Positions 2,341 through 57,977 of a stretch of 64,000 nucleotides of DNA are shown one piece after another. A model generated the notes under the pieces. That model made no database searches. It saw only the letters and a list, made by a program, of their open reading frames with translations, and was not told the origin of the DNA. The DNA is taken from NCBI GenBank assembly GCA_036504095.1, contig DASXVS010000025.1:1-64000 (forward strand), written 5' to 3'. The position numbers were made by a program, and so were the translations under genes. This stretch comes from Armatimonadota bacterium. Lineage in GTDB: Bacteria > Armatimonadota > DTGP01 > JAKQQT01. How positions within the stretch are numbered: the stretch's first letter is position 1; the number at the start of each line of letters is the position of its first letter.

Positions 2341-3708
2341 ATGCCAGAGTCCCGCCTTATGAAATGGACCCGCCGAATAGGCTGTACGCTCGCCGCGCTA
2401 TTCGTAATTGAGATCTTCACCTTGTTCACCGGCCTGCCGGACCCAGTACAGATCGTAATCGTGTACGGGTACAACGGCATCCAGTCCGTCCGCGAGGCCA
2501 CGGCAGACACCGTCGCGCGATTTCGTCGGCACAACCCAGGCGGTCCACCTCCCGATGCGCGGGTTGTCGCTGCGGCCAACGATTTCGGATTTGGGCTGCT
2601 GCGCCGCCTCTGCACCGCCAAGCCGGGACAGAACATCTTCTTCTCCCCCTACAGCGTCTCAGCGGTCACCACGACGTGCGCCAACGCGGCAGACGGAACA
2701 ACAAGGGCAGCTGTTATGAAGACGCTGCGCCTCGCGCCCTCCGGTCTTGCCGCAGCCAATGCCACGCAGAGGAGTATCCGGGAGTACCTTGCAGATACGG
2801 ACCCACGCATTCAGGTCAAGACCGCCAATAGCCTGTGGTCCGATTCCACGGTCGACCTGAATCCGGCGTTCGTTGGGTTGATGAAAGCTGACCTGAAGTC
2901 CGACGTGGAATCGGCAGACCTGCACACGGCGCTCGGCATGGCCCGCCTGACCGGGTGGATCGCCCGGAACTCGAACGCGAGCCTGGCGTCGGTAATCCCA
3001 CCGATGGCGCGGGAAGAACATATCGCGCTCGTGAACACCATCACATTCCACGGCAAGTGGAAGGATCAGTTCAAGCGGGCGAACACTCACCCCGACGAGT
3101 TCCACCTCGAGGATGGCGTCATCAAGATACTGCCCATGATGTCCCGGTCCGGCGCTGTGCAGGCCACCGGCGGACAGGTGCAGTCTCCGTCCGAGGGCCT
3201 GTGGGGTTACACGGTTGCCTGTCTTCCGTACGGCGACGGCTCCATGAGCATGCTGATCGTGCTGCCGAGGTCCGATGTCAAGGCGCATTTATCCGAGCTG
3301 TTGCCGCTCATCACCGCGAAGAACGTTGATCGGTGGACGAAGCACATGGGATCACATGTCGGCGGAATCGTGATGCCTCGCTTCAAGGTGAGCTGCCGGC
3401 CCGAACTGGACCCGGCCCTTCGGGAGATGGGCCTCGCGCCGGCGTATGACCCAGCGGCGGCGGACTTCACCGCGATGGCGACCAGCAGGTCTGGGAACCC
3501 CATCTACCTGAGCCGCACGATCCAGAACGCTTATCTGGAGGTGGACGAGGAGGGTACCCGGGCGGGAGCGATGACCATGCAAAGATACAACACCGCGGGC
3601 ATGCACGTGCCTATCTTCGTGGATCGGCCGTTCATCTGCCTGATTCGGGACAACCGGACGGGAATGATCCTATTCGCCGGGGCAATCTACGATCCTTCGG
3701 CGTGGTAG
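2341..3708 (+). CDS. Serpin-family protein, membrane-anchored or secreted (tandem copy 2)
   Basis: 455 aa, starting at ATG 2341 with AAAGGAG 8 bp upstream. It aligns with the upstream serpin along its whole length, including the N-terminal hydrophobic segment (about residues 14-31) and the conserved GLPDPVQIVIV motif after it. Serpin hallmarks are FFSPYSVS, NTITFHGKW, MPRF and DRPFICLIRDNRTG. The hinge is DEEGTRAGA, and the reactive loop after it (MTMQRYNTAGMHVP) differs sharply from copy 1, putting an Ala or nearby residue at P1. The most divergent stretch is therefore the specificity loop. The pair looks like duplication followed by change of target; the proteases inhibited are unknown. Confidence 0.9.
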   Translation: MPESRLMKWTRRIGCTLAALFVIEIFTLFTGLPDPVQIVIVYGYNGIQSVREATADTVARFRRHNPGGPPPDARVVAAANDFGFGLLRRLCTAKPGQNIFFSPYSVSAVTTTCANAADGTTRAAVMKTLRLAPSGLAAANATQRSIREYLADTDPRIQVKTANSLWSDSTVDLNPAFVGLMKADLKSDVESADLHTALGMARLTGWIARNSNASLASVIPPMAREEHIALVNTITFHGKWKDQFKRANTHPDEFHLEDGVIKILPMMSRSGAVQATGGQVQSPSEGLWGYTVACLPYGDGSMSMLIVLPRSDVKAHLSELLPLITAKNVDRWTKHMGSHVGGIVMPRFKVSCRPELDPALREMGLAPAYDPAAADFTAMATSRSGNPIYLSRTIQNAYLEVDEEGTRAGAMTMQRYNTAGMHVPIFVDRPFICLIRDNRTGMILFAGAIYDPSAW

Positions 3709-4051: not shown

Positions 4052-5602
4052 CTACGCCCCTTCCGGTTTCATCTGCGGAAACAGGATCACGTCTCTCACG
4101 GAGGCGGTGTCCGTCAGGACCATCACCATCCGGTCGATGCCAAGTCCCAGGCCGCCCGTTGGCGGCATGCCATAGGTCATCGCCTTGACAAACTCGGTGT
4201 CCATCGGGTGCGCTTCTTCGTCGCCCCCGGCCCGGAGGTCCGCTTGAGCGGCGAACCGCTCCCACTGGTCCACCGGGTCGTTGAGCTCGCTGAACGCGTT
4301 GCCGACCTCCTGCAAGGCGATATACGCTTCGAAGCGGCGGACAAGTTTCGGATTGTCGGGGTGCTTCTTCGCGAGCGGTGATGTTTCCAGTGGATAGTTG
4401 GTGATAAACGTCGGTTCCTTGAGATTAGGCTGCACAAACCGTTCCAGAAACTTCTCGATGATGCCGCCCACGAGGTGCTCGCCCTCGGTGGGGAGGCCGA
4501 CGGCCTCCAGCGCTCGAAGGGAAGACTCCAGGGTCTCAAATTCTGACGGTTTCACACCCGCATATTGTTCGATGCCTTCCAGAAGCGGCAGGCGTCTCCA
4601 GGGCGGGGCGACACTGATGCGTCCCTCACCATATGGAATGCTGGGTTCGCCATACAGTTCCATCGCTGCCGAGGAATATACATCTTCGACGAGGCCCATC
4701 ACGTCCTCGAGGTTGGCGTAGGCTTCATAGCACTCCATGAGCGTGAACTCGGGATTGTGGCGGGTGCTGATGCCCTCGTTGCGAAAGACGCGGCCGATCT
4801 CATACACGCGTTCAAAGCCGCCGATGATCAGCCGCTTCAATTCCAGTTCGAGGCTGATCCGGAGATTGAGGTCTGCGTTCAGAGCGTTATGGTGGGTGCG
4901 AAACGGCCGCGCGGCGGCGCCGCCGGCGACTCGCTGAAGAACGGGGGTTTCGACTTCCATGTAGCCGCGCCGCTCCATAGTCTTTCGAACGCTGGATACC
5001 ACCGCGCTGCGCTGGCGGAACCGTTCCCGGACTTCCGGGTGCACGGCCAGGTCCAGGTGGCGATGGCGATGCCGTTCCTCGACGTCTACGAGGGTACCAT
5101 ACTCCTTTCCCTCGTCTGTTTGCTTGCCGAACGGAAGGGGGCGAAGAGCCTTGCTGAGCACCTGGTACGACGAGACAAAGATGGTGACTTCGCCCGTGCG
5201 CGTCTTGTGGACCTCGCCTTCGAATCCGAGGAAATCGCCGCTGTCCACAAGGTTGAGGCGCGCGTATGCCTCGTCGCCAAGGGTATCCTTCTTGAGGTAG
5301 ATCTGAATCCGCCCGGATCCATCCTCTATGTGCATAAACTGGGCCTTGCCCATGACACGGATGGCAACGACGCGACCCGCCATGCGGGCGACCGTTCCTT
5401 CGAGGTCGTCGAATCGGGCGGACACGTCCGCAGCCAGGTTCGTCCGCTCGAATTTCTCAACGGCGAACGGATCCAGTCCGGCCTCGCGCAGAGCGCGCAG
5501 TTTTTCGAGCCGCGTGGCAATCAGTTCGTCTTCGGCGTCTGGAAACGGAAGTGCGGGCATCAGGAATCCGGGCCTCTCGGAAAGGGATGGGGCTGCGCCC
5601 AT
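4052..5602 (-). CDS. lysS: Lysine--tRNA ligase, class II
   Basis: 516 aa in the longest frame. Residue 15 (ATG at 5560) is an equally good start and would give 502 aa, nearer the usual family length. It charges tRNA-Lys with lysine in the cytoplasm. The N-terminal OB-fold anticodon-binding domain (about 70-180) is followed by the class II core: motif 2 includes RVFRNEGISTRHNPEFT, and motif 3 is GLGLGIDRMVM near the C terminus. The VDEERH-type element (DVEERHRHRHLDL) links the domains. Downstream hicB is coupled to its stop codon. Upstream greA is separated by about 190 bp containing a terminator-like hairpin. Confidence 0.97.
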   Translation of the reverse strand: MGAAPSLSERPGFLMPALPFPDAEDELIATRLEKLRALREAGLDPFAVEKFERTNLAADVSARFDDLEGTVARMAGRVVAIRVMGKAQFMHIEDGSGRIQIYLKKDTLGDEAYARLNLVDSGDFLGFEGEVHKTRTGEVTIFVSSYQVLSKALRPLPFGKQTDEGKEYGTLVDVEERHRHRHLDLAVHPEVRERFRQRSAVVSSVRKTMERRGYMEVETPVLQRVAGGAAARPFRTHHNALNADLNLRISLELELKRLIIGGFERVYEIGRVFRNEGISTRHNPEFTLMECYEAYANLEDVMGLVEDVYSSAAMELYGEPSIPYGEGRISVAPPWRRLPLLEGIEQYAGVKPSEFETLESSLRALEAVGLPTEGEHLVGGIIEKFLERFVQPNLKEPTFITNYPLETSPLAKKHPDNPKLVRRFEAYIALQEVGNAFSELNDPVDQWERFAAQADLRAGGDEEAHPMDTEFVKAMTYGMPPTGGLGLGIDRMVMVLTDTASVRDVILFPQMKPEGA

Positions 5603-5793: not shown

Positions 5794-6285
5794 CTATCGC
5801 CCGATTTTCAGAACCTTGAATTTGAGCCGGCCGACGGGAACATCCACCGAGACGGTTTCGCCGACTTTTGAGCCGATCAGACTCTGGCCGACCGGTGATT
5901 CATACGAGATCTTGTCGTCTCCGTTTGCCTCCACCGGGCCAACCATCTGGAAACGCCATTTCTCCTTGAACTCCATGTCCTGGACTTCCACAAGGGATCC
6001 CACGCCAACCTGGTCCGTTGGGACGTCATCCTGTTCAACGATGGAAGCGGCGCCCAGGATGCGTTTGAGATCCAGGATACGCCCTTCGACGAACGCCTGC
6101 TGTTCCTTGGCGACTTCGTACTCGTTGTTCTCCGAAAGATCGCCAAACGCCTTCGCTTCGCGAATCCGATCGGCGACTTCCTTGCGCTCTATGCTACGCA
6201 GTCGTTCGAGTTGTTCCTCAAGGCGACGCGCACCCTCGGCTGTGAGGATAACGCTTCCCTCCAGGACTGCAGCCTCTTCTGGCAT
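5794..6285 (-). CDS. greA: Transcription elongation factor GreA
   Basis: 163 aa, the normal GreA length. It rescues backtracked RNA polymerase by stimulating transcript cleavage through the secondary channel. The N-terminal coiled coil (about 15-85) carries the tip motif GDLSENNEYEVAKEQQ with the acidic residues needed for activity. The C-terminal FKBP-like domain shows SPVGQSLIGSKVGE. The start ATG 6285 has AAGGTAGG upstream. It has its own promoter at 6471-6499 and so a 5' untranslated region of about 180 nt. Confidence 0.97.
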   Translation of the reverse strand: MPEEAAVLEGSVILTAEGARRLEEQLERLRSIERKEVADRIREAKAFGDLSENNEYEVAKEQQAFVEGRILDLKRILGAASIVEQDDVPTDQVGVGSLVEVQDMEFKEKWRFQMVGPVEANGDDKISYESPVGQSLIGSKVGETVSVDVPVGRLKFKVLKIGR

Positions 6286-6518: not shown

Positions 6519-7595
6519 CTACCGCGCGGCGATCGCTTTCTTAACGCTTTCGATCGTCTCATCCGTAACGGGGCGTTCAAAACTCCGAAAACCCGCAAGC
6601 TTGAAGCCCTGCTCTTGAGCCAAACGCTGAGTCTCCCGCACTTGTTCCACGCTGACGGTCTTACCTAACGTAAAACTTTCGTAGCGCCCGGCGAGAGCGA
6701 GCATCATCGTCTCCGACATACAGGCGTAAGCCGTGCCAGGCTCAAATCCGAACGAGAAATTAAGGTCCACATGGTCGCCAGGGATTTTCACGACGCCTCC
6801 CTCGATGACGAGGACATCGGGCCGTTCTTTCACCACGCGGACCGACACATCGCGCGGGCGAGCCACATCGCATACAACCGCGCCGGACTTAAGGTCCGCG
6901 GGGTGGATCACCGTATCAACCGCACTGGTGACCGTGACAACGATATCGGCGGCCTTGAGCGCGGACTTGACATCGGTGGACGTTGTGACCTCGCGGGCGC
7001 CGCTCGCCCGCACTTCCCCGGCAACAGCGTTCAGCTTGGACTCGGTTCGTCCAACAAGGGTTACTGATCTGGCGTCGCGCCCGAGGACCATCGCACACGT
7101 GCGCCCGATGGAACCAGTGGCTCCAACGACGGCAACCACGGAATCTTCGACGTTGCGACCAAGCAGTTGGTTCGCAGTGACCGCGGCCTCGATAGCGGTG
7201 GCCACCGTGTAGGAATTGCCGGTGGTCACCGCGATGGGCAGGCGGCTCGCGATCGTGACGCCGGCATCACCAACCACAGAGGTGAAGGCGCCGAGACCCA
7301 GGATACCGGCGCCCAAATCCGCGGCGATCATTCCGCACTGAACGATGCGATCGTAGACGAACTCTGTGGGGAGTTCCAACATCTGGCGCGCCGAAAGCGG
7401 GCAGGCGACAAACCAACCCTCCGCCTCTGCGCCATTGGCCGCGCGGATGCCGGTGCAGTGCCCCACCACCTGGGGATTGCTGAACTTGATGGCGAACTCG
7501 ACAACCTGTTCCGGGAGGTAACGGGCAATGGGATACTTGCGCGCCACGTCTTTTCGGGCGTCCAGAGGATGTATAACGAATGCGAACTTTTCCAT
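6519..7595 (-). CDS. Acyl-ACP reductase-like (AAR family) NAD(P)-dependent oxidoreductase
   Basis: 358 aa, similar length to cyanobacterial long-chain acyl-ACP reductase, which makes fatty aldehydes. Shared landmarks are GLGAFTSVV, TTGNSYT, the Rossmann motif VVGATGSIG (about 163-171), VIEGGVVKIPGD, and YACMSETM with Cys at residue 292. That Cys matches by position the active-site Cys of the cyanobacterial enzyme. The order of motifs along the whole protein agrees. Non-cyanobacterial members are often annotated as shikimate or glutamyl-tRNA reductase-like proteins. No aldehyde-deformylating oxygenase is adjacent, so alkane synthesis is not implied. The real acyl substrate is unknown. The neighbouring gene (7790-8692) is a likely functional partner. 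Confidence 0.75.
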   Translation of the reverse strand: MEKFAFVIHPLDARKDVARKYPIARYLPEQVVEFAIKFSNPQVVGHCTGIRAANGAEAEGWFVACPLSARQMLELPTEFVYDRIVQCGMIAADLGAGILGLGAFTSVVGDAGVTIASRLPIAVTTGNSYTVATAIEAAVTANQLLGRNVEDSVVAVVGATGSIGRTCAMVLGRDARSVTLVGRTESKLNAVAGEVRASGAREVTTSTDVKSALKAADIVVTVTSAVDTVIHPADLKSGAVVCDVARPRDVSVRVVKERPDVLVIEGGVVKIPGDHVDLNFSFGFEPGTAYACMSETMMLALAGRYESFTLGKTVSVEQVRETQRLAQEQGFKLAGFRSFERPVTDETIESVKKAIAAR

Positions 7596-7652
7596 GTCAA
7601 AAGGGCGCGCTTCGCCTCCTGGCGGTGGCCGGGGCGTTTTGCGTGCCGCCTT

Positions 7653-7681
7653 ATTCTACACCCAGAATGCCGTGGAGGCAA
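7653..7681 (-). promoter_or_regulatory. sigma70-type promoter of the AAR-like gene
   Basis: Minus strand: -35 TTGCCT (7676-7681), 17-bp spacer, -10 TAGAAT (7653-7658), the same -10 as at greA. Predicted start near 7646, about 50 nt before the ATG. Confidence 0.6.
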
Positions 7682-7728
7682 GTGCAGAGGTCGGGTGGCA
7701 GGTGGCCGTTGATGGGTATCGGGTGGCA

Positions 7729-7748
7729 GGGGTCAGAGTTCTGACCCC
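7729..7748. repeat. Perfect 9-bp hairpin, REP-like
   Basis: GGGGTCAGAGTTCTGACCCC forms a perfect 9-bp stem with a 2-nt loop in the gap between two co-directional genes. No T-run follows it on either strand, so it does not look like an ordinary terminator. Flanking sequence carries iterated GGGTGGCAGG- and GTTCATCGTTC-type words. Confidence 0.65.
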
Positions 7749-7789
7749 AAGATATGTCGGTCACCGGTCAACGTTCATCGTTCAGTTTT

Positions 7790-8692
7790 TCACCCGAGGC
7801 GGTCCACGTTGGGGGACCAGTTGAGGCGGCCGAGCATTTCCATGTAGCTTTCGGGAGTCATCTCCTCCGGCCTCTTGCCGGCAGCGGTCACGAGCACTCC
7901 TTCCATCACGTTGGTGCCGAACGATTCGCCTCCGAAACTGGGCGTCGTTGTGACGAGCGTGGCGACACCACGATCCACCAACTGCTGACGGTCGGCCTTG
8001 CGTGTTGTGTTCGTGAGGATGACCTTGCCGTCCATGCGCTCCGGCATATACCTGCGTATGAACAGGAAATCACCAGCGATGACGTCGGCCCACTCATACC
8101 ACCTGGGGTATTTCGGCGTAATCGTGTCCTGCTTCTCCCCGGTTGGATACAGCAGTTTGAACGGCGCCTGCACGACGATGGGCAGCAGCATTTTGGCGAT
8201 CAGCTGGAATGACGACCACTGCCGTATCACGACGGGCAGGCCGAGGGTGAACATCAGGTCGCCCATGGCGAGATCGGCGCCGGCTTCGTGAAGCGCTTCG
8301 GCCATTCCGAAGCGATCGACGCCGGCGACCATCAGGACCTTCTTGCCCCGGAAGTCAACCGTGCCGTCTGCCTGGAGGCGGCGGACGGTTTCGCGTTCCA
8401 AAGTGTTTTTCAGGCCGCTTCCATCCACCCACGGCGTTTTATGGAGATGGCTGACGAGGCGTTTAGCCTCGCGGAAGGCATAGCGGCGGCCGTTTGCCCA
8501 GAGGTACACGTCGAGGCCGCCGATACCGATGGCATCCACGTTGCCGTCCAGTTCCTCGAGTTTGGCGATGTACTTGTCAAACGAACCGTCGACGCCAACG
8601 CGCTCGATGCGGAACTGCTCGCCGAAGAACTCTGCGTCCTGGGATTTGTCCCGGGCGGAAGATCCCAGGCTGACGCTGACTACCCTTTTCAC
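7790..8692 (-). CDS. 'Quinate 5-dehydrogenase'-type protein of uncertain function
   Basis: 300 aa from GTG 8692 with AGGAGG 6 bp upstream. It begins KRVVSVSLGSS and contains GLGGID-like IGIGGLDVYLW, DGSGLKNTLERETVR, KVLMVAGVDRFGMAEAL, FGD-like MGDLMFTLGLP, LLYPTGEKQ, WADVIAGDFLFIRRYMP and SFGTNVMEG. These blocks match a conserved family carried in databases under the name quinate 5-dehydrogenase, for which I know of no solid experimental support. No signal peptide or membrane segment is seen, so it is cytoplasmic. It lies upstream of the AAR-like gene on the same strand, separated by a promoter; I recall this neighbourhood from other phyla but could not check it. Confidence 0.7.
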   Translation of the reverse strand: MKRVVSVSLGSSARDKSQDAEFFGEQFRIERVGVDGSFDKYIAKLEELDGNVDAIGIGGLDVYLWANGRRYAFREAKRLVSHLHKTPWVDGSGLKNTLERETVRRLQADGTVDFRGKKVLMVAGVDRFGMAEALHEAGADLAMGDLMFTLGLPVVIRQWSSFQLIAKMLLPIVVQAPFKLLYPTGEKQDTITPKYPRWYEWADVIAGDFLFIRRYMPERMDGKVILTNTTRKADRQQLVDRGVATLVTTTPSFGGESFGTNVMEGVLVTAAGKRPEEMTPESYMEMLGRLNWSPNVDRLG

Positions 8693-8754: not shown

Positions 8755-9687
8755 CTACTTTGGCGGGGCGGTCTTCCAGGTGGCCTTGAGAACGATGTCA
8801 CCGAGCGCGGCGGCCTCGGGATAAAGCGTCCACCAGACCTCATTCGCGTATTCGTCAGACTCTCCGTTTGTCTCCACTACCGTGCCTGGCGGCTTCAGGG
8901 TGAAAGTCATGGACGGCATATCGGTCCCGTCCTTGCTCGCTGAAGATGATCCACCTGGCTCCGGAGACCCTTTGGCTTGGGCCTGGGCGGACATCACGCC
9001 GATGAGTTTCTTGACCGTTGCGCGGCGCTCTTCCGCAGTGAGTCGGCTGCCAACGGTTTCGCCAAGCGTGCGATCGATCGATCGGCCGAGGCGCTGCAGG
9101 AGGATGTGCTCCGCGGCGTCGGGCTGAAGCATCAACTGAGGCAGGACCGATTGGCCGGGGCCAAACATGGCGCCCCAGAGCCCACGCACCAGTCCAACGG
9201 CCAGCGCCTTCGCATTGGCTTCGGTGGCAATTGACGCCGGCAACGCTCCCTTGATTGCCGCGATAGCATCAGCCGGAGGGTTCGCGAGTTCCGCGGGCTT
9301 ATCCCCGGCCCAGTGCAGAGTCTCCGTATACTGCCAGCGGCCCGGCGCAATTTGCCGAACCACGACAGTGTTCGTAACGAGGACGGGACCTTTCTCTTTG
9401 CGGCGGACCATGATATCCTTGCCGAACTGCCCAGGTCCCTTCACCTTCAGCGAGGCGGTATAGGTTACCTCTTTTACGGTCACCGTCTTCTTGGCGGTCC
9501 ATCCTGCGCCCTGTGCCGGGAGGGTGAAGACATCGGAGAGCTGCGCGCCGCCCATGCCGGATTTGGCCTGCGTGAAAACGTCCTGACGCGTCCAGGAGCC
9601 GTCCGGCTTAACCTCAGTGGTCACGGCCACGCGGCTGCAACCGGCAATCAGCGGCATCGCCGCCACCGCAAATAACAGTCTTTTCAC
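8755..9687 (-). CDS. Predicted lipoprotein of unknown function
   Basis: 310 aa from GTG 9687, with GGAAGGAGG upstream. The N terminus MKRLLFAVAAMPLIAGC has a clear lipobox with Cys at residue 17, so the mature protein should be lipid-anchored. The first ~120 residues look beta-rich (alternating V/T/K strands such as VAVTTEVKPDGSW and VTYTASLKVKG). A helical middle section (about 140-240) and a Gly/Ser-rich linker follow, then a C-terminal beta part. I do not recognise a family. Its gene lies upstream of the 'quinate dehydrogenase' gene on the same strand, 62 bp away. Confidence 0.75.
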   Translation of the reverse strand: MKRLLFAVAAMPLIAGCSRVAVTTEVKPDGSWTRQDVFTQAKSGMGGAQLSDVFTLPAQGAGWTAKKTVTVKEVTYTASLKVKGPGQFGKDIMVRRKEKGPVLVTNTVVVRQIAPGRWQYTETLHWAGDKPAELANPPADAIAAIKGALPASIATEANAKALAVGLVRGLWGAMFGPGQSVLPQLMLQPDAAEHILLQRLGRSIDRTLGETVGSRLTAEERRATVKKLIGVMSAQAQAKGSPEPGGSSSASKDGTDMPSMTFTLKPPGTVVETNGESDEYANEVWWTLYPEAAALGDIVLKATWKTAPPK

Positions 9688-9758: not shown

Positions 9759-10733
9759 CTATTCCGCTTCTTGCTGCGGTTCACGGTAATTGTCGAGCAA
9801 GTTCAGGACATCGGACAGACCGGGCATGCGCATAATCGCGTCACGCAGGTGATTGCCGCCAGGAATTCCCTTACAGTATGCCGCCACCTGGCAGCGGAAC
9901 GCCACAACGCCTATCCGCTCACCTTTTTGTTCCACATTGAGCAACAGGTGGCGGCGCATCATGGCAATGCGGTCAGCGGTCCCCGGCGCGGCAAGCGCTT
10001 CACCCTCTTCGAGATACGCGTTGGCTGCGGCGAAGAACCACGGATTGCCCATTGCGGAACGGCCGATCATGACGCCGTCGCACTCGCTCTCGTCCATACG
10101 GCGGTTCACATCCTGGGGCGTCCTGAGGTCGCCGCTGCCAAGAACGGGGATTGTCACCAGTCCCTTCACGTGCCTGACGATATCCCAGTCGGCGTTCCCG
10201 TCGAAGCCCTGTCTGGCGGTCCGCCCGTGAATCGTGACGGCGCAAATGCCCACCTCCTGGCAGAGTTCCGATACCCACGGCGCGCTTACTTCGCCCTCGT
10301 CCCAACCCTTCCTCATCTTGACGCTCACCGGGAGATGCGTTGAGGAAATGACCGCCGTGAGAACCTCGCGAAGGCGGACCGGGTCGCGGGCCAGCGCACT
10401 GCAGGCCCCGGTGCGCGTTACTTTCGGCACCGAACAGCCCAGGTTGACGTCGATGAAATCCGGGCCTTTGGAGGTAACGATGCGGGCCGCGTTTGCCATA
10501 TGATCGGGATCGCCGCCAAAAATCTGCACACCCACGGGGCGCTCATCGTCCGTGAAGTCGATCATCTCGTCCGTGCGTTCGCTGCCGTACCACATGGCTG
10601 TGGCGCTGAGGAGCTCCGTGCAGACGAGGCCGGCACCCTGTTCTTTGCAGAGGAGGCGGAACGGGTGGTCCGTGTAGCCCGCCATGGGGCTGAGCACGAG
10701 CGGGCTTCGGGTTTCAATGGGGCCGTAGTGCAT
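9759..10733 (-). CDS. dusB: tRNA-dihydrouridine synthase, DusB-like
   Basis: 324 aa. FMN enzyme that reduces uridine to dihydrouridine in the D-loop of tRNA. The TIM-barrel motifs are in order: LSPMAGYTDHPFR (residues 15-27), VQIFGGDP, FIDVNLGCSVPKVTRTGAC with the catalytic Cys, PVSVKMRKGW, VTIHGRTARQGF, GSGDL and GVMIGRSAMGNPW. The C-terminal helical tRNA-binding domain follows. It is downstream of coaX; the gap is filled with the inverted repeat at 10738-10814. Confidence 0.93.
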   Translation of the reverse strand: MHYGPIETRSPLVLSPMAGYTDHPFRLLCKEQGAGLVCTELLSATAMWYGSERTDEMIDFTDDERPVGVQIFGGDPDHMANAARIVTSKGPDFIDVNLGCSVPKVTRTGACSALARDPVRLREVLTAVISSTHLPVSVKMRKGWDEGEVSAPWVSELCQEVGICAVTIHGRTARQGFDGNADWDIVRHVKGLVTIPVLGSGDLRTPQDVNRRMDESECDGVMIGRSAMGNPWFFAAANAYLEEGEALAAPGTADRIAMMRRHLLLNVEQKGERIGVVAFRCQVAAYCKGIPGGNHLRDAIMRMPGLSDVLNLLDNYREPQQEAE

Positions 10734-10737
10734 ACAA

Positions 10738-10814
10738 GCAAACGATGAACGATGAGTGATGAACGATGAATGCCGGACCCGGATTCATCGCTCATCGTTC
10801 ATCGTTCATCGTTT
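10738..10814. repeat. Quasi-palindrome built of iterated GATGAAC words
   Basis: Two arms of about 31 nt composed of repeats of AACGATGA pair across an 11-nt centre (GCCGGACCCGG). The right arm encodes the last residues and stop of coaX (ATG AAC GAT GAG CGA TGA). A related element lies at 21601-21715. Confidence 0.8.
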
Positions 10815-11586
10815 TCTCCCAGATGAGGCGGAGGCCGTCGAGGGTAAGCCATGGGTCGACTTCACTCACTTCCTCGGTTTCGGCGCAGATAAGACCGGCG
10901 AGGCCGCCGGTGGCGATGGCGCGCGCGTTGGGACCGAGTTCCCTGCGGAAGCGGCGAACCATCCCGTCTACCTGGGCCGCGTAGCCGTAGACGAGACCGC
11001 TGGTGAGACTGTCGGCCGTGGTGACACCGATGGCGGCCGTCGGTTTGGCGAGTTCGGTTTGCGGGAGTTTGCTGGCAGCGCGATGCAGAGCGTCCGCGCT
11101 GATGCCCAGGCCTGGCGCGATGGCGCCGCCGAGGTAATCGCCATTTTCGGCGATGGCGTCGTACGTGGTCGCCGTGCCGAAATCGACGACGATGCATGGT
11201 CCACCGTATGCGTGATAAGCCGCCACTGCATTGACAAGGCGATCGGCGCCAACGGCTTCGGGCGGGTTGTACCGGATGTTGATGCCAAGGTCCACGGTGC
11301 GGTCGACAACGAGGATGCGCCCGTTGAGGTAGCGCTCACCCCAGTCCCGGATGGCGCGGTCGAGAGGCGGTACGACGGACGAGGACGCGGCGCCGGCGAG
11401 GACCTCGGTGGGTTCGCCGAGGCCCTGAAGCCGAAAGAGGCCACTGAAGGCGAGGGCCAGTTCGTCCGCCGTGATGTGCCGGTTGGTGCCCATGCGCCAG
11501 TGCGCGACGAGTTCCTCGCCCTTGTACGCACCAAGGGTTATGTTCGTGTTGCCGACGTCGAGCGCCAGCAGGAGGTCGTGAGTCAT
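10792..11586 (-). CDS. coaX: Type III pantothenate kinase
   Basis: 264 aa from ATG 11586. A longer in-frame start exists at 11643, but the conserved N terminus LLLALDVGNTNITLG begins right after ATG 11586. It phosphorylates pantothenate, the first step of coenzyme A synthesis, in the cytoplasm. The ASKHA-fold motifs are present: DVGNTN (phosphate 1), GADRLVNAVAA, VVDFGTATTYD and GGAIAPGL, then ATGGLAG. No clear Shine-Dalgarno precedes either start. The C-terminal MNDER and stop codon lie inside a dispersed inverted repeat, so the very end of the protein may have been rewritten by the repeat. Confidence 0.93.
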   Translation of the reverse strand: MTHDLLLALDVGNTNITLGAYKGEELVAHWRMGTNRHITADELALAFSGLFRLQGLGEPTEVLAGAASSSVVPPLDRAIRDWGERYLNGRILVVDRTVDLGINIRYNPPEAVGADRLVNAVAAYHAYGGPCIVVDFGTATTYDAIAENGDYLGGAIAPGLGISADALHRAASKLPQTELAKPTAAIGVTTADSLTSGLVYGYAAQVDGMVRRFRRELGPNARAIATGGLAGLICAETEEVSEVDPWLTLDGLRLIWEKTMNDER

Positions 11587-11656
11587 AGGTGTTGTTGAGG
11601 TTCGTACATCAGGTTGACGATGCCGCGCGCGTCTGGCGCTCAAGGCAGACCGACTG

Positions 11657-11682
11657 GGCCGGGCACGGGAGCCCGACCTACT
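11657..11682. repeat. CGGGC hairpin repeat, copy A
   Basis: GGGC-ACGGGA-GCCC hairpin followed by GACCTACT. Its right end supplies the stop codon of the gene ending at 11678. Related copies lie at about 17201-17225, 49453-49480 and 49527-49556. Confidence 0.6.
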
Positions 11683-12457
11683 GGGTCACTTCCTGGCGCT
11701 GCATGATGACCATGCTCTTGCCGCCGTCCTGCGCAGCTTTGTTCATCTTCTCCTCGATGCGGGCGCGTTCTTCGGGCGGCAGACTCTGCAACGCCTGGGC
11801 ACGCTGTTCCGGTGTCATATCGGAGGAGACCACCACGCCGCCGTGGTCTTTCATCCACTGGGCGCGCTGTTCCGGAGTCATGGCCTTCAGGGCGTCGAGC
11901 CCGCCGGGCGGGAGGGCGTCTCCCAGAAGACCAGGCGCAGCTGCCGGGCTTTCTGTCTGCCGGTAGAGCAGATATACGGCTTTGCGCGTCTTTGCCCATT
12001 CCTTCATGGCGGGCGACGCTTCGAGGTCGCGCGAGACGACGGTCATCTGGCCCGTCGCGGGATCGACGACGCCGATGTTAGGCATATTGACGCCATCCAG
12101 GCTGGCAACAATGCGCTTCAGGCGGCGGGCATCGACGGCGCCGCCAGCGAGGCGCGGAATCTCGTTCTCGGGAAGGTATACCTTGCGCCAGATGGCGTGA
12201 TTGGCTTTCGCGATCGTGTCCAGCCCCTGCTCCAGCGGGAGCCTGGCTGTCGCGGCGGACACATTGACGTTGATATCAGGGTCCACAGCGGCAACGGCGT
12301 TCGCCGCCTTCGCCATGGCGGCAACGGCGGTGGCAACGGTCTGGCCGCGGGTAACTATGACCTTATTCGCCGGTTGCGGCGCTTCGGGCGCCGACTTCGG
12401 CTGCGCGTAGGCTGCCGGCATGAGCGCCGCCGCAGCCAACACGATTAGTCGTTTCAT
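11678..12457 (-). CDS. Secreted STN-like domain protein, paralogue 1
   Basis: 259 aa with a signal peptide (MKRLIVLAAAALMPAAYAQ) and GGAGAG upstream of the ATG. The mature N-terminal part (about 30-120) has a beta-alpha pattern: KVIVTRGQTVATAVAAMAKAAN, then a strand, LEQGLDTIAKANHAIWRKVYLPE. This resembles the short secretin/TonB N-terminal (STN) domain. The C-terminal half carries two MTPEQRAQ helices and a Glu/Arg-rich helical stretch. No enzymatic motif is visible. A paralogue follows immediately upstream in transcription order (12642-13412), so the pair is a tandem duplication. Periplasmic location is inferred; function unknown. Confidence 0.75.
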   Translation of the reverse strand: MKRLIVLAAAALMPAAYAQPKSAPEAPQPANKVIVTRGQTVATAVAAMAKAANAVAAVDPDINVNVSAATARLPLEQGLDTIAKANHAIWRKVYLPENEIPRLAGGAVDARRLKRIVASLDGVNMPNIGVVDPATGQMTVVSRDLEASPAMKEWAKTRKAVYLLYRQTESPAAAPGLLGDALPPGGLDALKAMTPEQRAQWMKDHGGVVVSSDMTPEQRAQALQSLPPEERARIEEKMNKAAQDGGKSMVIMQRQEVTQ

Positions 12458-12641: not shown

Positions 12642-13412
12642 CTACTGTTTCGGCTTGGCCTGAGGCGTCATCATCTTGATCGAGATGTCCATCAGCTTGG
12701 CCTTGACCTCCGGCGATAGATTCTGAACGGCCGCCATACTCTGCTGCATCATTTCGCCCATCGCCTCGGGGTCCATGTTCAGGACCTGCTCGATCCCCTG
12801 CGACATCGCCTGGCTGCGCTGCTCCGGCGTCATGTTGCGGAAGGCGTCCAGCGAGTTGCGCTGTGTTGTCAGATAATCGCCGACGGGATCGCCGGAGTTG
12901 CCAAACGCGGAGCCCATGATCGTCGGCCGATAGAGAAGATAGACTGGCTTGCGTGCCTTGAGCCATTCCTGCGTGGCCGGCGAAGCGGCCGCGGTGCGGG
13001 TGGACATCGCGATGGTCCCGGTCGCCGGGTCGAATACGCCGACGCTGATTTCCGGTGCGGCCGAAACGGCCTCAACCATCTGACGCAACTTGGAGACAGA
13101 GATTTTCCCATCCTTGTCTCGCGGGATTTCGGCTTCTTTAAGGTATACCCGTCGCCACTGCACATGGTTCGCCGTCGCGATGCTGGTGAGCGCCGGTTCG
13201 AGAGTCAGTTTTGACACGGCGGGAGTGGCATTGCCAGTTATGCTGGGATCGACAACCGCTTCCACGTTGGCCGCCTTGGCCAATGTGGCGACCACGGCCG
13301 CGATGGGCTGGCCCTGAGAGATGACAACCTTGTTTTGACCGGTGGGCGCGGCGGTCTGAGCAAACGCTCCCGTTGCGACCGCCATCATCGCCAGCGTTGA
13401 TTTCAGTTTCAT
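12642..13412 (-). CDS. Secreted STN-like domain protein, paralogue 2
   Basis: 256 aa with a signal peptide (MKLKSTLAMMAVATGAFA). It matches the downstream paralogue: KVVISQGQPIAAVVATLAKAANV, VDPSI, LEPALTSIATANHVQWRRVYLKEAEIP, FDPATG, KARKPVYLLYR, MTPEQRSQ. The C-terminal quarter diverges and is a Met/Gln-rich helical segment. Both proteins keep an invariant W-R-[KR]-V-Y pattern (residues about 95). The likely fold is an STN-like module plus a helical tail in the periplasm. The Q-rich MTPEQR helices resemble those of small periplasmic stress proteins, but only loosely. Confidence 0.75.
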   Translation of the reverse strand: MKLKSTLAMMAVATGAFAQTAAPTGQNKVVISQGQPIAAVVATLAKAANVEAVVDPSITGNATPAVSKLTLEPALTSIATANHVQWRRVYLKEAEIPRDKDGKISVSKLRQMVEAVSAAPEISVGVFDPATGTIAMSTRTAAASPATQEWLKARKPVYLLYRPTIMGSAFGNSGDPVGDYLTTQRNSLDAFRNMTPEQRSQAMSQGIEQVLNMDPEAMGEMMQQSMAAVQNLSPEVKAKLMDISIKMMTPQAKPKQ

Positions 13413-49595: not shown

Positions 49596-52500
49596 CTACT
49601 TGTTCCGGAAATCCGGACTCAGAGTTGTATAGTAGACGTCGCTTGCGGAGCCCGCGTACATCAGACCTCCGAACGAGCTCTTGGGGTCATCGAATATCTG
49701 GTAGTAATACGGATCGACCGGTTTAGACTGGATGAGCGACGGCACACTGGTTGTATTCCCCGCGCTGCGGCTGGGCCTGGTGCTTTCCCAGAACAGCCAC
49801 ATGCTGTTATTGCCACGGACGTAATACAGCGGATCACCCGGCGGCACGTCGCTGAACGGGTCCTTGAACATCCAGGGCACGCTGTCATTGCCTTGCGCCT
49901 GGGTTGGAACGGCCCGCGGCTGGGTCCACGTCTCCATCGGAAGCCTGAAATCGCCGCCCGCGGTCCCGTACCTTACAGGAGCCGGGATGCCTTCCGGTAT
50001 CCACCCGATCGTGAAGCGCCCCACTTTGCTTCCGCCCATATAGACGTCCACAACATCTCCATCGTTCGCTCCGGTAAAGAAGAGACGTCCATTTTTCCGG
50101 TCGACCGTCACATAGAGATCGACCTGCGCTCCCGAAGTGTCCGTGAAGCTGATGACGGGCAGCTTGCCTTTGCTGTCCAATGGTATAGGCGCGACGCCGG
50201 TGTCGACGCCCAGCCGATACGTCTGGTAGAACAGCGAGCTCTGGCGCGTGGCGCCTTCGGGCGCCGCGCTGCGGCGCCACAAGACCCACATCCGGTCGCG
50301 ACGGATCACCAGCGGGTTCGTCGCCGTAATGGGCGCATTTGTCTCCGTCGGATCCGTCACCACCTCGTGCGTTTCGTCGATCCATATCTGCGGCATCGTG
50401 TCGGAGATGTCGTCGTCGGCGGTCACGCGCAGCGCATAGGGGTTCATCGCCACGAAGACGAAGTCCTGCACCAGGACGTTATTGGCATCGGAATGCGGCA
50501 CGGTCATCGGCGCAGGGTGCCCCACCGGGTCCGAGGTTGTGAAGCGGACGGTGCCGCCGCCGGCGTCGATAAACGCCGTCACATTCGGCAGGTTACCGCC
50601 CGCGGCCATATGGCCCGTGACTTCCACGATGCCACCCTGGTTGTTCCCGGGATTGCGCGACGTGAAGGTCGCAAACAACCGGTAGTCGTTGTCATTGCTC
50701 GGCTGGCCTTGAGGCGCCACGGGCTTCTGGAACCAGTAGACGACCGTTCCGAGCGGCCCACGGCCGAGCCAGTCCGCCCAGCGCGAGCGGAAGATGGGGC
50801 GCGGTTCGCCGGCCACGCGGATCAGCGGGTCCAGCGGCTTGTTGTCGATGCTCCTGGGGTCGGCGCCCTTTCGCGCGAATCCCATCGTGCCCCAACCGCC
50901 GACGGTGGCGGCCGAGCCATCCTCCGCGGATTTCATCGCCACGTAGCGCACCACGTATATGTCCGGGTTGCGCGCCGAGCGGTTGTAGCCCGTGAAGGCG
51001 ACTTCCAGGACGCCCTGCCGGTATTTCGCGTTGGACGAATCCAGGAGCACCTTGGGCATTTGATGGTAGTACACGCTGGGGTGTAGCGCGCTGCCGACGC
51101 CGGTCGGCAGCGCCAACTGCGTCGTTTTCCAGGTAGCGTCCTTGCTGATGGCGCCGGTATTGTCGGTCGCGATCGTGCTGACGTAGAGTTTCCAGGCGCC
51201 CGGGGCGCCGCCGAACCACGCGACACCGAGCCCGATCACGCGCTCGCCAGTCAGGTAGGCGGATCCCACCTCGGCGCCATTCTTCGTGAGGGTGCCGCCG
51301 GCGGTGATCAGGAAAGGCCGCGGCCCGTATTTCGGGGTGAACGGATCGAGCGAGCGCAGGCCATTCACCACGCCGACAGCCTGAATGGAGCCACCGGAAA
51401 TGCCCACGGTGGCGTTGGAACGATCCACCGCGATGGGCGCGTAGAAGATGGCGCTCCGCTGGTCGGCGCCGATGCCCGTCGTTCCGACCCAGAAGACGAC
51501 GCGCGGGAAATTCGTGCCGTGATACTCAGTCAGAGGCGCGGGCGACGTGTAATTGAGATCGGACGCCGATATCTCGCCCGGTTTCACGCCCAGCGCATCC
51601 GCCACGGTTGCGTTGTCAGGAAGCCACGGCTCCGCGCTCGGCGCACCGAACCATCGGGCGGGCGCGCCGAAATTCGGGAACAGGAAGAGCCCGCCGGTGT
51701 TGCCGCCCTGGTACTGCCAGCCCCACGGGTTCTGCGCCAGCACGCCGGTGAGGAACTGATTCACGTTGGCGCCGTAGTTGATGGGCGGATTGGTCGGATC
51801 CTGCCACGTCATCGCGCTGGCGAAGATATGGTACTTAGAGGCCGCTTCCGCCTTCGGAACGAACGGCGCAATCGGCTGGAAGCCGCTGCTCCCGACTTCC
51901 CCGACGCGGTTACTGGACCAGAAGGTGACAAGGTCGCCCGTCGAAGGATCGCGGAAGGCAGACGGTGTCGTATCCTGGGCCAGCGACTGCCACACTTTTC
52001 CGAGGCTGGCCAAGTCGTTCGGCGTGGCGAACGTTGCGGACATGGCGACGCCGGTGTCGGCGTTCGGCAGGAACGGGGCGAGGCGCGAGGTCTTGTCGGT
52101 AAGCCGGGCTTCGCCCACGTTGACGGTGACCACCGAGTCCGCGCTCACTCCGGACTCGCCGGGCGTTAGGACGCCGTCGCCGGAAGTGAACTTGCCCGCG
52201 GCAAACTGGATGTCCTCGAAGACAACAAACCGGCCGTTAGGCGTGGAATAGCGTCCCGGCGGCGTTCCCGGCGGGATGGCAACCGTGAGATACGGCAGCC
52301 CCGGAGGCGACGCCACGCCGGTCGCGTTGTGCTGGCGGCGGACATAGCCCGCGGCCCAGAGGTTGGGAGCGTCCGGCGCCGTCGAGGGAGACGCTGCAAA
52401 GACGTCCTTCACCTGGATGATACGGCCGTTTCCGTCGTCGCCGATGGCGCCCGGGGTCGGCTTGCGAACCGGCGTCCACAGCCGCGGATCGGACGGACCG

Positions 52501-55500
52501 CCCGCGCCGGATTTCGGCAGCGGATCGATTGTGGAGGCCAGGTTAAACCGCTTCAACTTGCCGGACCCAGGCCAGTTGCTGTGCTCGTCGGCGCCCAGGT
52601 ACGGGTTCTGGTCGATCTCTGGCGCTTCCAGATGGGCGGCCAGCGGATCGTACTTGTCGAGGCGCAGGCTCCAGAGGTTCACATTTCCCGTGTTGTAGAC
52701 CGCAAACGGCGCATAGTAGGAGCGCTCGCCGAACAGCAATCTGTCTTCGTCGCCCGGACTTGCGCCGGCGGTAACGGCCTGGTTGTCGTAGTAGTACTGG
52801 AACGGGATATAGCCGGCAGGGATGCTGGATTCCGGGCTGCGCGGCACGTCGATGGTGGTCGTCGCGACCTTCAACGATTCGTTCGGACGGACCTGCGCGC
52901 CGGACACGAACATACGATAGGCTTCGCCGGCGTCGGTGTCGGGCGAGCCGTTGCCATTCACGTCCGCGTATACCTTGGTCAGGTACTGCTGTTCCCGGGC
53001 AACGAAAGCGTTGGATGTGGGCAGCAGCGGGTTGTTGATACCGCCGGCGTAATACTGCTGCGCATTGGTGTGGCTCGGATCGGTGAACGCGCCATACAAC
53101 CCGGCCCCCAGGGACCGGCCGGCGGGGTTCCACGCCAGTAGAGCCGCCGCGGCCGCCGAGTTGTTCGTCGGATTGATGGTGTAGTAACCGGGGCCAACGC
53201 CCGAAACCTTGCTCTGATCGCCGGGATCGATGTTCGGCGGCGAGTAGTTGGCGGGCTGATATTTCGGGACGGCGACGCGCATCGAGAAGTTGGCGAACCC
53301 GTTCGGGAAAAGCGGGGCGTCATCGAGGGTGGCGTCGGACTCCGTGTCGCCGGCCATGGTCGGCTCCCGCAGCCAGGTTGTCTTGCCCGCGTCAATGTCC
53401 GGGTAGTCGAGGCTCTTGTTCTCCTCGCCCGTGACGAACGGGGGGGTCTCGGCGCCAATGTACACATGCGCGTTCGGATCCTGGGCGCTTGCTATCTGCG
53501 GCCCCCAATAGGACGGCAGGTTCGGATCGGTAGCCTGCGCATACAGCGGCTCCGGCGGCAACGTGCCCAGCGATGACGGAAGGCCGTTCGGGAGATTGCC
53601 TGTATTCACTAGCAGCGGCTTGTAAGCCGCCTTCGGGCCGCCGACCCAGCGAAGCCTGTTGCCCTGGACGCGGACGCGCAGGTAGATGTTGTCGCCGGAG
53701 CCGGCGAGCTTGGAGTTCGCCAGCGCGCGCAACTGCGGCAGGTGGCTCCGGTCAACGACCGTCACCAGGTTCTGCGGGATCGTATTCGTCCCGTGGTCTC
53801 CGATCACGGACGTCTCGATCGGGATGCGCTCGTTGCCGTTGCGGTCGACTTCCTTCTCCTGGTCCGTTGTAGGCGTCACGGGCGTCGTGGCGGTCGCCAG
53901 CAACGGCGCCGGTACGGTGGTGGCGTCACCGGGCGTGAAATGCCCCATCATATTGATCGGGTTGCCCAGGCGGAATTTGGTGAGCGAAGCAATCTTCACG
54001 CGTTGTGAAGCCTGTCTGCGCCGGACTTCCTTGCCATTGACCACGTCGACGAGATCGGGCGCCTGATAGAACGCCGTGACGGTGTAGCCCGATCCGCGCC
54101 AGCCCGGGGCCAGCAATTGCCCGTGCAGCGGGTTGACGTATTCGGATTGCGGCGCCATCGGATATCGCAGGCCGATCGGAACAGATTCGCCAAACGGGTT
54201 CAGGTAGAATATCTGCCGGGAGAATCCGGTGGTCCCCGAACTCTCCAGCGAGCCCTTCAGCGTCGCCGTGGTGCCCGGCCCCGTCAACTGGAAGGTTAGT
54301 GTGCCCCAGTCGGTTTTAGCCTTGGCGGCCTCGGTGTCGAGGCCCGGGCCCCATGCGACCACGCCTACCGGATCGCCCCATTCCAGGAGGGCGCCGTTGG
54401 CGGCCTGGAAGTTGGCGTTGGCCACCCCCACAGGCTGCGGCGTGGTGGGTCCCAATTTGGCGGCATTGCCCGGAGGTCCACCGGTGGGCGCGGCCGTGCC
54501 CTGAAACGCCTGAGGCGTGGTGAAGTTGTAGCCGAACCCGGCCTGGAAGATGTCAACGTAGAACTCGAGGTCGCCCGCCACGGACGCGCCGCCGCTGGGG
54601 CGGACGCGGTCGGGCGCCGGGCCGCGCTGGCCCCTGTTGCGGTAGCCAGTGCGTCCGCCGCCGCCGACGTTCCCGAAGTCAAAATCAGGCAGTTGGTTCG
54701 CCCACGCATATAGAAGCCCGTTGTCGCCGCCCGCATACACATAACCGGCGTGGATGACCGGGGTGGAGACGACCGGCTGCTGGACCGGCTGAAGGCTCGT
54801 GACCGGCGGATCGACGCTCGTGTCGGTGGTCGGTACGTCCGAATCGACTTCCCAGCCCCAAGACAATTCACCGCCCGTTGTCGCCGGCGTCATGAGTTTG
54901 TTGTGGACGTCGGTCACCGGCTGGGTGCGCGCGGATGTGGTATCGAGGGCGAGCACACCGGTTGTGACACCGATAAAGACGTAACTGCGCCCGGCCGCCG
55001 CCGGATAGCTTGACGTGAGCATAAGGGGCGAACTGACCACGGGCGACGAGTAAAGCCCCGCCGTTCCCGCGACATTGCCGGGAAGCGAATACGGAAGACG
55101 CCAGTACAGGCGGTCCACGCTGGCTTTGGCATCGTCGGCCGGCCCGGCCCGCAGGGGGTAGACCCGTCCGTTGTTGTCGATCGCGAAAAGGATGCTCTGA
55201 TCCTTTAGCGGGCTTCCCTCTCCAGACCCGGCGCTGACCGCTTCGTTGACCTCGCTGAATATCTGTTGGCCGGTGGCGTACGCGGGTGTGACGTTGAACG
55301 CGGACGGGCGGATGGTGTAGTCGGTGGCGGGTGTTTTGTCGAAATCCGTGTTGACATCGCGCGTCACGTCATTCCAGCGGTCAAAGGTCCACTTGACGGT
55401 TCCGTTCAAAGGATTGACGCAGAAGATGGTGCCGCCGCTGAGGCCGGCTTCAGCGCCGATCGTGGCGTCGTTCTGGTTCGTGGGCGAGGTCACAAAGATC

Positions 55501-57788: not shown

Positions 57789-57977
57789 TTCCCATCCCCC
57801 GGCGCGCGCCGGTAATATCGTGTGTAACACAAGCAGTACGCGCCCAATTGATTGGACCGAAGCCCATACCGGGCGGTTCCAGGCCGTGGGGCCGGGTTCA
57901 ATACCAAAACAGCGTTTCAGCCCGTGCCGGACGGGCACGGAATTGCCAGCGCCACTCTCGGCTCGCGATGGCTCCGT
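57789..57977. other. Gap between the two giant genes
   Basis: No gene is seen. A hairpin CCGTGCC-GGACG-GGCACGG lies at about 57922-57941 without a T-run on the minus strand. The region otherwise holds only the ribosome site of the 2730-aa protein. Confidence 0.4.

Follow-up and report, generated by a model that had tools for sequence, protein, structure and literature searches.

An acyl-ACP reductase homolog and its conserved upstream partner in Armatimonadota and Bacillota

What does a homolog of the cyanobacterial acyl-acyl carrier protein (ACP) reductase (AAR) make in a bacterium of the phylum Armatimonadota, and does the conserved gene upstream of it take part? The question is raised by a 64,000-nt stretch of DNA from an Armatimonadota bacterium (GenBank assembly GCA_036504095.1, contig DASXVS010000025.1, positions 1 to 64,000; hereafter the window). 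Its AAR-like gene (6519..7595, minus strand) is an intact open reading frame (ORF) of 358 aa with an ATG start. The gene of the partner protein (7790..8692, minus strand), annotated as 'quinate 5-dehydrogenase', is an intact ORF of 300 aa with a GTG start. The explanation that we propose, and regard as evenly poised, is that the AAR would turn an acyl thioester into an aldehyde destined for a lipid and that the partner would work alongside the reductase or follow it. Searches of the open-licence PMC literature showed no description of the pair or of its function.

The reductase

The window AAR has the two-domain AAR fold, a Cys at the catalytic position and a GxxGxxG dinucleotide loop, as expected of the AAR superfamily. 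In NCBIfam searches it scored 74.3 bits against the acyl-ACP reductase model TIGR04058 (cut-off 449.7) and 196.9 bits against the PigE model (cut-off 850); because both scores fall below the cut-offs, the protein is a superfamily member rather than a cyanobacterial equivalog. It also matched Pfam PF01488 ('Shikimate / quinate 5-dehydrogenase'). The nearest PDB sequence was the reductase part of PigE (4ppm; E 7.7e-32), and cyanobacterial AAR 6jzq was matched as well (E 2.7e-17). The preliminary description of the protein as an AAR homolog therefore stands for superfamily and fold but not for the cyanobacterial type, the sequence being closer to the reductase domain of PigE. Matches to TIGR04058 below the cut-off were also returned by Thermus composti and Deinobacterium chartae; they may include Rossmann noise, since the archaeon Methanocaldococcus jannaschii matched too.

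An AlphaFold2 model built from a 17-row alignment (predicted local distance difference test, pLDDT, 90.4) matched 6jzq with a Z-score of 34.9 and 2.8 Å over 324 residues. The TAD domain of carmabin followed at Z 34.0 and the next family at only 14.3. The Foldseek match to AAR had an E-value of 4.5e-22 and template modeling (TM) scores of 0.77/0.80. Despite the common fold, catalytic Cys position, GATGxIG loop and TTGN motif shared with cyanobacterial AAR (TIGR04058, 6jzq), the window AAR is only 22-24% identical to it in structure alignments, scores far under the family cut-off and is linked to a partner gene.

In cyanobacterial AAR, which reduces ACP-bound acyl thioesters, an active-site Cys numbered C294 holds the acyl group before hydride is delivered from NADPH (PMC7089970). 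The window protein keeps the AAR motif order, as had been noted earlier, with TTGNSYT, GATGSIG and the Cys all present. Its presumed catalytic Cys292 (codon TGT, 6720..6722, minus strand) sits in YACMSETMML and lies opposite the active-site Cys of 6jzq in a HMMER alignment; together with the whole-model match to 6jzq, this bears out the position previously assigned to it. The dinucleotide-binding loop GATGSIG (residues 158-164; 7104..7124, minus strand) corresponds to GATGDIG of the cyanobacterial enzyme (PMC7089970), and TTGNSYT occupies residues 124-130 (7206..7226, minus strand). We aligned 99 AARs, the window protein included; members were chosen for their similarity to that protein, so strongly decayed relatives fall outside the set. 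H9, C292, E295, G158, G161 and G164 were invariant in all 99, as were T124, G126 and T130 of TTGNSYT, and the invariance of H9, C292, E295 and the three loop glycines held in 96 of 96 sequences once near-copies were removed. Three NADPH 2'-phosphate positions, mapped by hand from the 6jzq alignment, are basic in the window protein (R183, K187 and K312) and in 84-87 of the 99. As judged from these residues and the predicted fold, the window AAR is likely to be an NAD(P)H-dependent acyl-thioester reductase.

Alkanes are an improbable end product in the explanation proposed here. The preliminary description had reported no deformylating oxygenase, and the same held across the sampled phylum: aldehyde-deformylating oxygenase (PF11266, E<=1e-5) was found in none of 151 Armatimonadota genomes, that of the window included, while the Synechococcus control was positive. 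By analogy, the same reduction chemistry is expected as in PigE, TamH and KecF. PigE also reduces its thioester (PMC8341465). TamH is an aminotransferase-AAR fusion in which the reductase domain gives a C12 aldehyde and the aminotransferase domain makes the amine (PMC9594044). Aminotransferase fusions likewise occur in partner-bearing Bacillota; in contrast to these proteins, the window AAR stands alone, has no adjoining aminotransferase in the window, and appears to belong to core rather than secondary metabolism. The carmabin TAD domain (9e4s, 9e4u; known here by PDB titles), whose fold resembles the AAR model at Z 34, is part of an assembly line, unlike the window AAR.

Linkage of the pair and the partner protein

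The pair had earlier been suggested to be linked beyond this genome, and the linkage proved widespread and well above what chance would give. We searched 151 Armatimonadota genomes, many of them drafts, with an AAR threshold of E<=1e-10 and absence judged at the stated thresholds. The partner was found in 143 and AAR in 142; both occurred in 139, the partner alone in 4, AAR alone in 3 and neither in 5. The two genes lay on the same strand at most 300 bp apart with the partner upstream in 75 of the 139, and the same order was kept at 0.3-3 kb in 11 genomes and at 3-20 kb in 2. One genome had the reversed order at 10.6 kb and another had the pair more than 1 Mb apart; 88 of the 90 single-contig pairs were thus within 20 kb with the partner upstream. 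Among 199 Bacillota genomes (the phylum group of Thermoanaerobacter wiegelii; AAR threshold E<=1e-15), both genes were present in 132, the partner alone in 21, AAR alone in 4 and neither in 42. The Fisher p-value for co-occurrence, 1e-22, is uncorrected for relatedness and serves only as a guide because related genomes are not independent. Among the matches listed, AAR positions were available for 108 of the 136 AAR-positive genomes, and in 93 of these AAR was directly preceded by the partner; for the rest, the partner was on another contig (10), far away on the same contig (2, one of them, G373, a fusion) or unplaced (3).

Searched with the partner alignment, GTDB contigs yielded at least 590 confirmed relatives. 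The 80 loci retained from these were mostly titled Bacillota/Clostridia or Armatimonadetes; a few were Actinomycetota, one was Abditibacteriota, and some were bins with other or vague names. A strong AAR was directly downstream in 36 of the 80, nearby in 5 and missing from the stretch in 35, and 4 offered no room for it. The order coaX-dusB-(helix-turn-helix gene)-partner-AAR-greA-lysS recurred among them, one or more members often being absent from the stretch. Taken as a whole, the pattern makes functional coupling of AAR and partner fairly probable.

Other features of these loci were also seen. A helix-turn-helix protein of ~180 aa (cluster c3, 39 loci, e.g., L102:7368-7898) is usually encoded just upstream of the partner in Bacillota and Actinomycetota; in one tested member the Pfam helix-turn-helix matches were below the cut-off, and the gene also adjoins a number of the partner genes whose genomes yielded no AAR. 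In L063, L064 and L065, which form one family, partner and AAR are separated by two extra codirectional genes (~117-137 and 466-468 aa). L124, titled 'Methanoregulaceae archaeon', has the partner and, in its genome, a full AAR, and is possibly a mislabelled or mixed bin.

The partner itself had no match in NCBIfam, PHROG or PDB sequences, and Pfam gave only a sub-threshold DUF5122; a PHROG match was also absent for AAR. The quinate/shikimate dehydrogenase model PF01488 did not match the partner and matched the neighboring AAR instead. That the name 'quinate 5-dehydrogenase' hides some other function, as had been suspected, agrees with the lack of any curated model above cut-off, and the name appears to be a label transferred from the PF01488-matching neighbor. 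The same annotation is carried by deino9.00587 of Karamycheva et al. (2022) (genome number 33, protein number 33), which is counted among uncharacterised, probably important Deinococcus families and is shared with Thermus and other bacteria (PMC9425974, Table 3). By annotation name only, the partner family may be the deino9.00587 family. Unlike for the partner, no link to AAR is given for it in the passages of PMC9425974 that concern the family.

We modeled the partner from a 24-row alignment (pLDDT 92.4) and realigned the top 1000 Foldseek chains by VIA-align. The nine best entries were all AAR or TAD (Z 13.9-12.2), followed by glutamate dehydrogenases at 10.5 and below. Judged from this model, the partner probably folds like AAR, which need not reflect descent from it. 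The protein has neither GxxGxxG (the loop reads AGVDRFG) nor the catalytic Cys. Residues D90, K95, E99, D126, R127, D145, D208 and N261 were invariant in 135 of 135 partner sequences, and in 133 of 133 without near-copies. Lys95 (codon 8408..8410, minus strand) stands in VDGSGLK, possibly the equivalent of TTGNSYT in AAR. Asn261 (codon 7910..7912, minus strand) lies close to where a helix begins, as Cys292 does in AAR, and may be the equivalent of that Cys, as judged solely by the modeled helix starts at residues 260 and 291; this register was unconfirmed by a low-confidence hhalign path, in which Glu264 falls opposite a residue other than Glu295.

Fusions of AAR relatives and a possible lipid route

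Relatives of the AAR are found fused to enzymes that suggest a possible destination for its product. A single frame of 567-625 aa with a PlsY domain followed by an AAR domain is present in seven genomes, six of Armatimonadota and one of Bacillota. This fusion was the sole PF02660 match (E<=1e-5) in each of the seven genomes; one fusion was annotated with Pfam and the PF02660 search covered all seven. A separate PlsY could be missing from four of the six Armatimonadota assemblies because they are less than 90% complete (69-88%). A class-III aminotransferase preceded AAR in 9 of 20 fetched regions, many of which had been chosen for long frames, and also in L116 (by Pfam) and L130 (by eye); L185 shows the PigE-type order, AAR and then aminotransferase. 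Where the genes are separate, as in L104, L179 and L181/L199, an aminotransferase gene and an SRPBCC gene adjoin the pair. AAR homologs were also present in 16 plasmid records, and 13 of the 15 listed lie under an annotated class-III aminotransferase, the other 2 being unannotated; for the partner, no place on plasmids was found at E<=1e-5. A quick tree of 89 rows, which omitted part of the Armatimonadota loci and had the cyanobacterial reference on a very long branch, put the PlsY fusions and the aminotransferase fusions in separate groups (SH-aLRT 100 and 99, respectively), and the stand-alone AARs sorted largely by phylum. Two further candidates were set aside. A 636-aa AAR-partner fusion in L181/L199 was rejected, the part upstream of the partner not being in the AAR reading frame, and an 806-aa frame in L187 contains X residues and was not accepted as a fusion.

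In the mechanism that we propose, the acyl group of acyl-ACP (or acyl-CoA) would be transferred to Cys292 of AAR, hydride from NAD(P)H would be added to the bound acyl group, and an aldehyde would be released. The aldehyde, or the acyl-enzyme, would then enter membrane-lipid synthesis, where it would supply an alkyl or amine component, and alkanes would not be made. The partner, with its probable AAR-like fold but neither Cys nor GxxGxxG, might work beside the reductase as a subunit or aldehyde acceptor, or perform the next step. The link to membrane lipids is suggested by the fusion of AAR relatives to the sole detected PlsY in seven genomes, and that to amines from AAR relatives fused to, or beside, class-III aminotransferases. 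Whether the product is destined for membrane lipids is, in our judgment, an even call.

Several observations weigh against this explanation. With regard to the chemistry, TamH makes its C12 amine from C12-ACP with NADH, and not from acyl-CoA or with NADPH; its reductase domain thus required an ACP-bound substrate and NADH (PMC9594044). A search of the open-licence PMC literature showed no alkylamine or aldehyde lipid of Armatimonadota, and none of the Armatimonadota AAR frames listed was long enough for an aminotransferase fusion (longest 667 aa). With regard to the partner's fold, Foldseek ranks AAR fifth by E-value (1.9e-5; TM 0.50/0.45, 8.2 Å), behind sugar-binding proteins that have lower TM-scores, and hhalign did not find partner-AAR sequence homology (probability 0.4% and 0.2%; 0.06-0.16% with secondary structure). 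With regard to linkage, 49 of the 139 Armatimonadota genomes have the pair on different contigs, some of them long, and the common coaX-dusB-greA-lysS neighborhood could hold the two genes together without a joint pathway. Finally, AAR was not detected at E<=1e-15 in 21 of the 153 Bacillota genomes that carry the partner. In 18 of 19 partner regions from such genomes, no AAR-derived ORF was picked near the partner, by a procedure that missed the partner itself in L219 and often took the greA antisense, and in regions two of which (L210 and L220) stop shortly behind the partner. The partner can therefore probably act without AAR. In the remaining region, L202, which coincides with L157, the partner is followed by an AAR-derived ORF.

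The last of these points leads to the most probable rival, in which the partner would have a housekeeping role of its own, perhaps as an NAD-using oxidoreductase with a catalytic Lys95, and would share only a neighborhood with AAR. Besides the AAR-less genomes, it can draw on the many charged partner residues that are invariant, as in an active site, on the glutamate dehydrogenase folds that come after AAR in the partner's fold list, and on loci such as L138 and L216 in which the partner lies between dusB and greA even without a following AAR. However, AAR without the partner is rare (4 of 136 genomes, of which G222 is a confirmed and G342, by frame length, a further aminotransferase fusion), and the pair is adjacent outside the coaX-lysS cluster in Armatimonadota loci L108, L112, L139, L148, L161, L163 and L169. 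We consider an independent partner rather unlikely.

Loci without a nearby reductase were followed further. For 27 of the 35 loci with no AAR in the stretch, the genomes were searched: an AAR was present elsewhere in 21 (E<1e-15), in several of them solely as a long frame of the aminotransferase type; 3 had weak matches only and 3 had none. At 17 loci the slot between partner and greA lacks a strong AAR; five ORFs located there (L115, L157, L177, L123 and L162) matched the AAR hidden Markov model with 72 to 23 bits (E<=5e-8 in a set of only ~30 sequences). Those of L115 and L157 alone reached 1e-5 in the whole-genome search, which did not include the L177 genome, and on inspection by eye none of the five carries a Cys at the third position ahead of the Glu that is likely to be the conserved one. 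Cluster c15 from the same slot compared with AAR at an hhalign probability of 26%, which is suggestive only. These data fit a slot that sometimes keeps a Cys-less, AAR-derived protein beside the partner, and they also fit plain decay.

A second rival would have AAR reduce a non-fatty thioester, i.e., a polyketide or peptidyl carrier substrate of the kind handled in clusters for secondary metabolites. Its relatives do include the PigE reductase domain, KecF, TamH and the carmabin TAD domain, but AAR is present in 142 of the 151 phylum genomes, has housekeeping neighbors and has relatives fused to the sole detected PlsY; core metabolism is favored on these grounds, and we regard this rival as very unlikely. 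It is highly improbable that the enzyme uses its Cys for acyl transfer or for acyl-phosphate/acyl-ACP exchange to supply PlsY, and not for net reduction: PlsY uses acyl-phosphate and PlsY-AAR fusions exist, but the NAD(P) loop is kept (G158, G161 and G164 in 99/99) and PlsX was detected in 58/61 genomes and in 25/26 genomes without AAR at the thresholds used, so that AAR neither replaces nor follows PlsX.

Two related ideas were rejected on the same PlsX counts: the partner as a replacement of PlsX, and a loss of AAR that tracks the loss of PlsX, which had rested on genome G010 alone. That genome is 96% complete and has the partner, with AAR and PlsX undetected; its phospholipid route may differ.

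Setting of the locus and implications

In the window, the pair lies in a run of minus-strand genes. Those assigned by family-model matches are lysS (4052..5602) and greA (5794..6285) downstream of AAR, and dusB (9759..10733) and coaX, encoding a type III pantothenate kinase (10792..11643), upstream of the partner; between the partner and dusB is an ORF of 310 aa (8755..9687) without a confident family match. The GTG start of the partner is closely preceded by AAGGAGG, and an AGGAGG lies ~19 bases before the ATG of AAR, a longer spacing than usual. Between the two genes is an inverted repeat, GGGGTCAGA-GT-TCTGACCCC (7729..7748; no strand), with 9-bp arms and a 2-bp spacer. Its 18-base core occurs once in the whole genome, and from its sequence the repeat is a possible operator.

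Elsewhere in the window, tandem serpin genes occupy 616-2130 and 2341-3708 of the plus strand (PF00079, E 1.2e-76 and 1.9e-78). Adjacent minus-strand ORFs at 11678-12457 and 12642-13412, of ~257 aa each, fall in one BLAST cluster, and a Pfam family above cut-off was found for neither. Two giant ORFs neighbor each other on the minus strand at 49596-57938 (2780 aa) and 57978-62558 (1526 aa); for the latter, a Pfam search at E<=0.001 gave no match.

The retention of AAR and partner together in 139 of 151 Armatimonadota and 132 of 199 Bacillota genomes suggests that lipid chemistry based on aldehydes belongs to core metabolism in these groups, and the PlsY fusion connects relatives of the reductase to phospholipid synthesis. 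Glyceroyl-alkylamine phosphoglycolipids occur in Thermus, Meiothermus and Deinococcus, and in the 2012 Thermus paper the alkylamine lipid pathway was described as still under study (PMC3398001, PMC3035268). In a bolder form of our explanation, which we think quite unlikely, the pair would be the missing entry to an ancient long-chain alkyl or alkylamine lipid pathway of Armatimonadota, many Bacillota and Deinococcota. The invariant Lys of the partner, possibly facing the cleft, would bind the aldehyde (e.g., as a Schiff base), and the partner would pass the aldehyde on, either to a transaminase or into phospholipid synthesis. If true, this would account for where Thermus and Deinococcus obtain the alkylamine of their phosphoglycolipids, for which genes are not named in the relevant parts of PMC3398001 and PMC3035268. 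The alkylamine lipids of Thermus and Deinococcus offer a product that can be assayed, which makes the question of the pathway testable, and the pair may open an uncharted lipid pathway.

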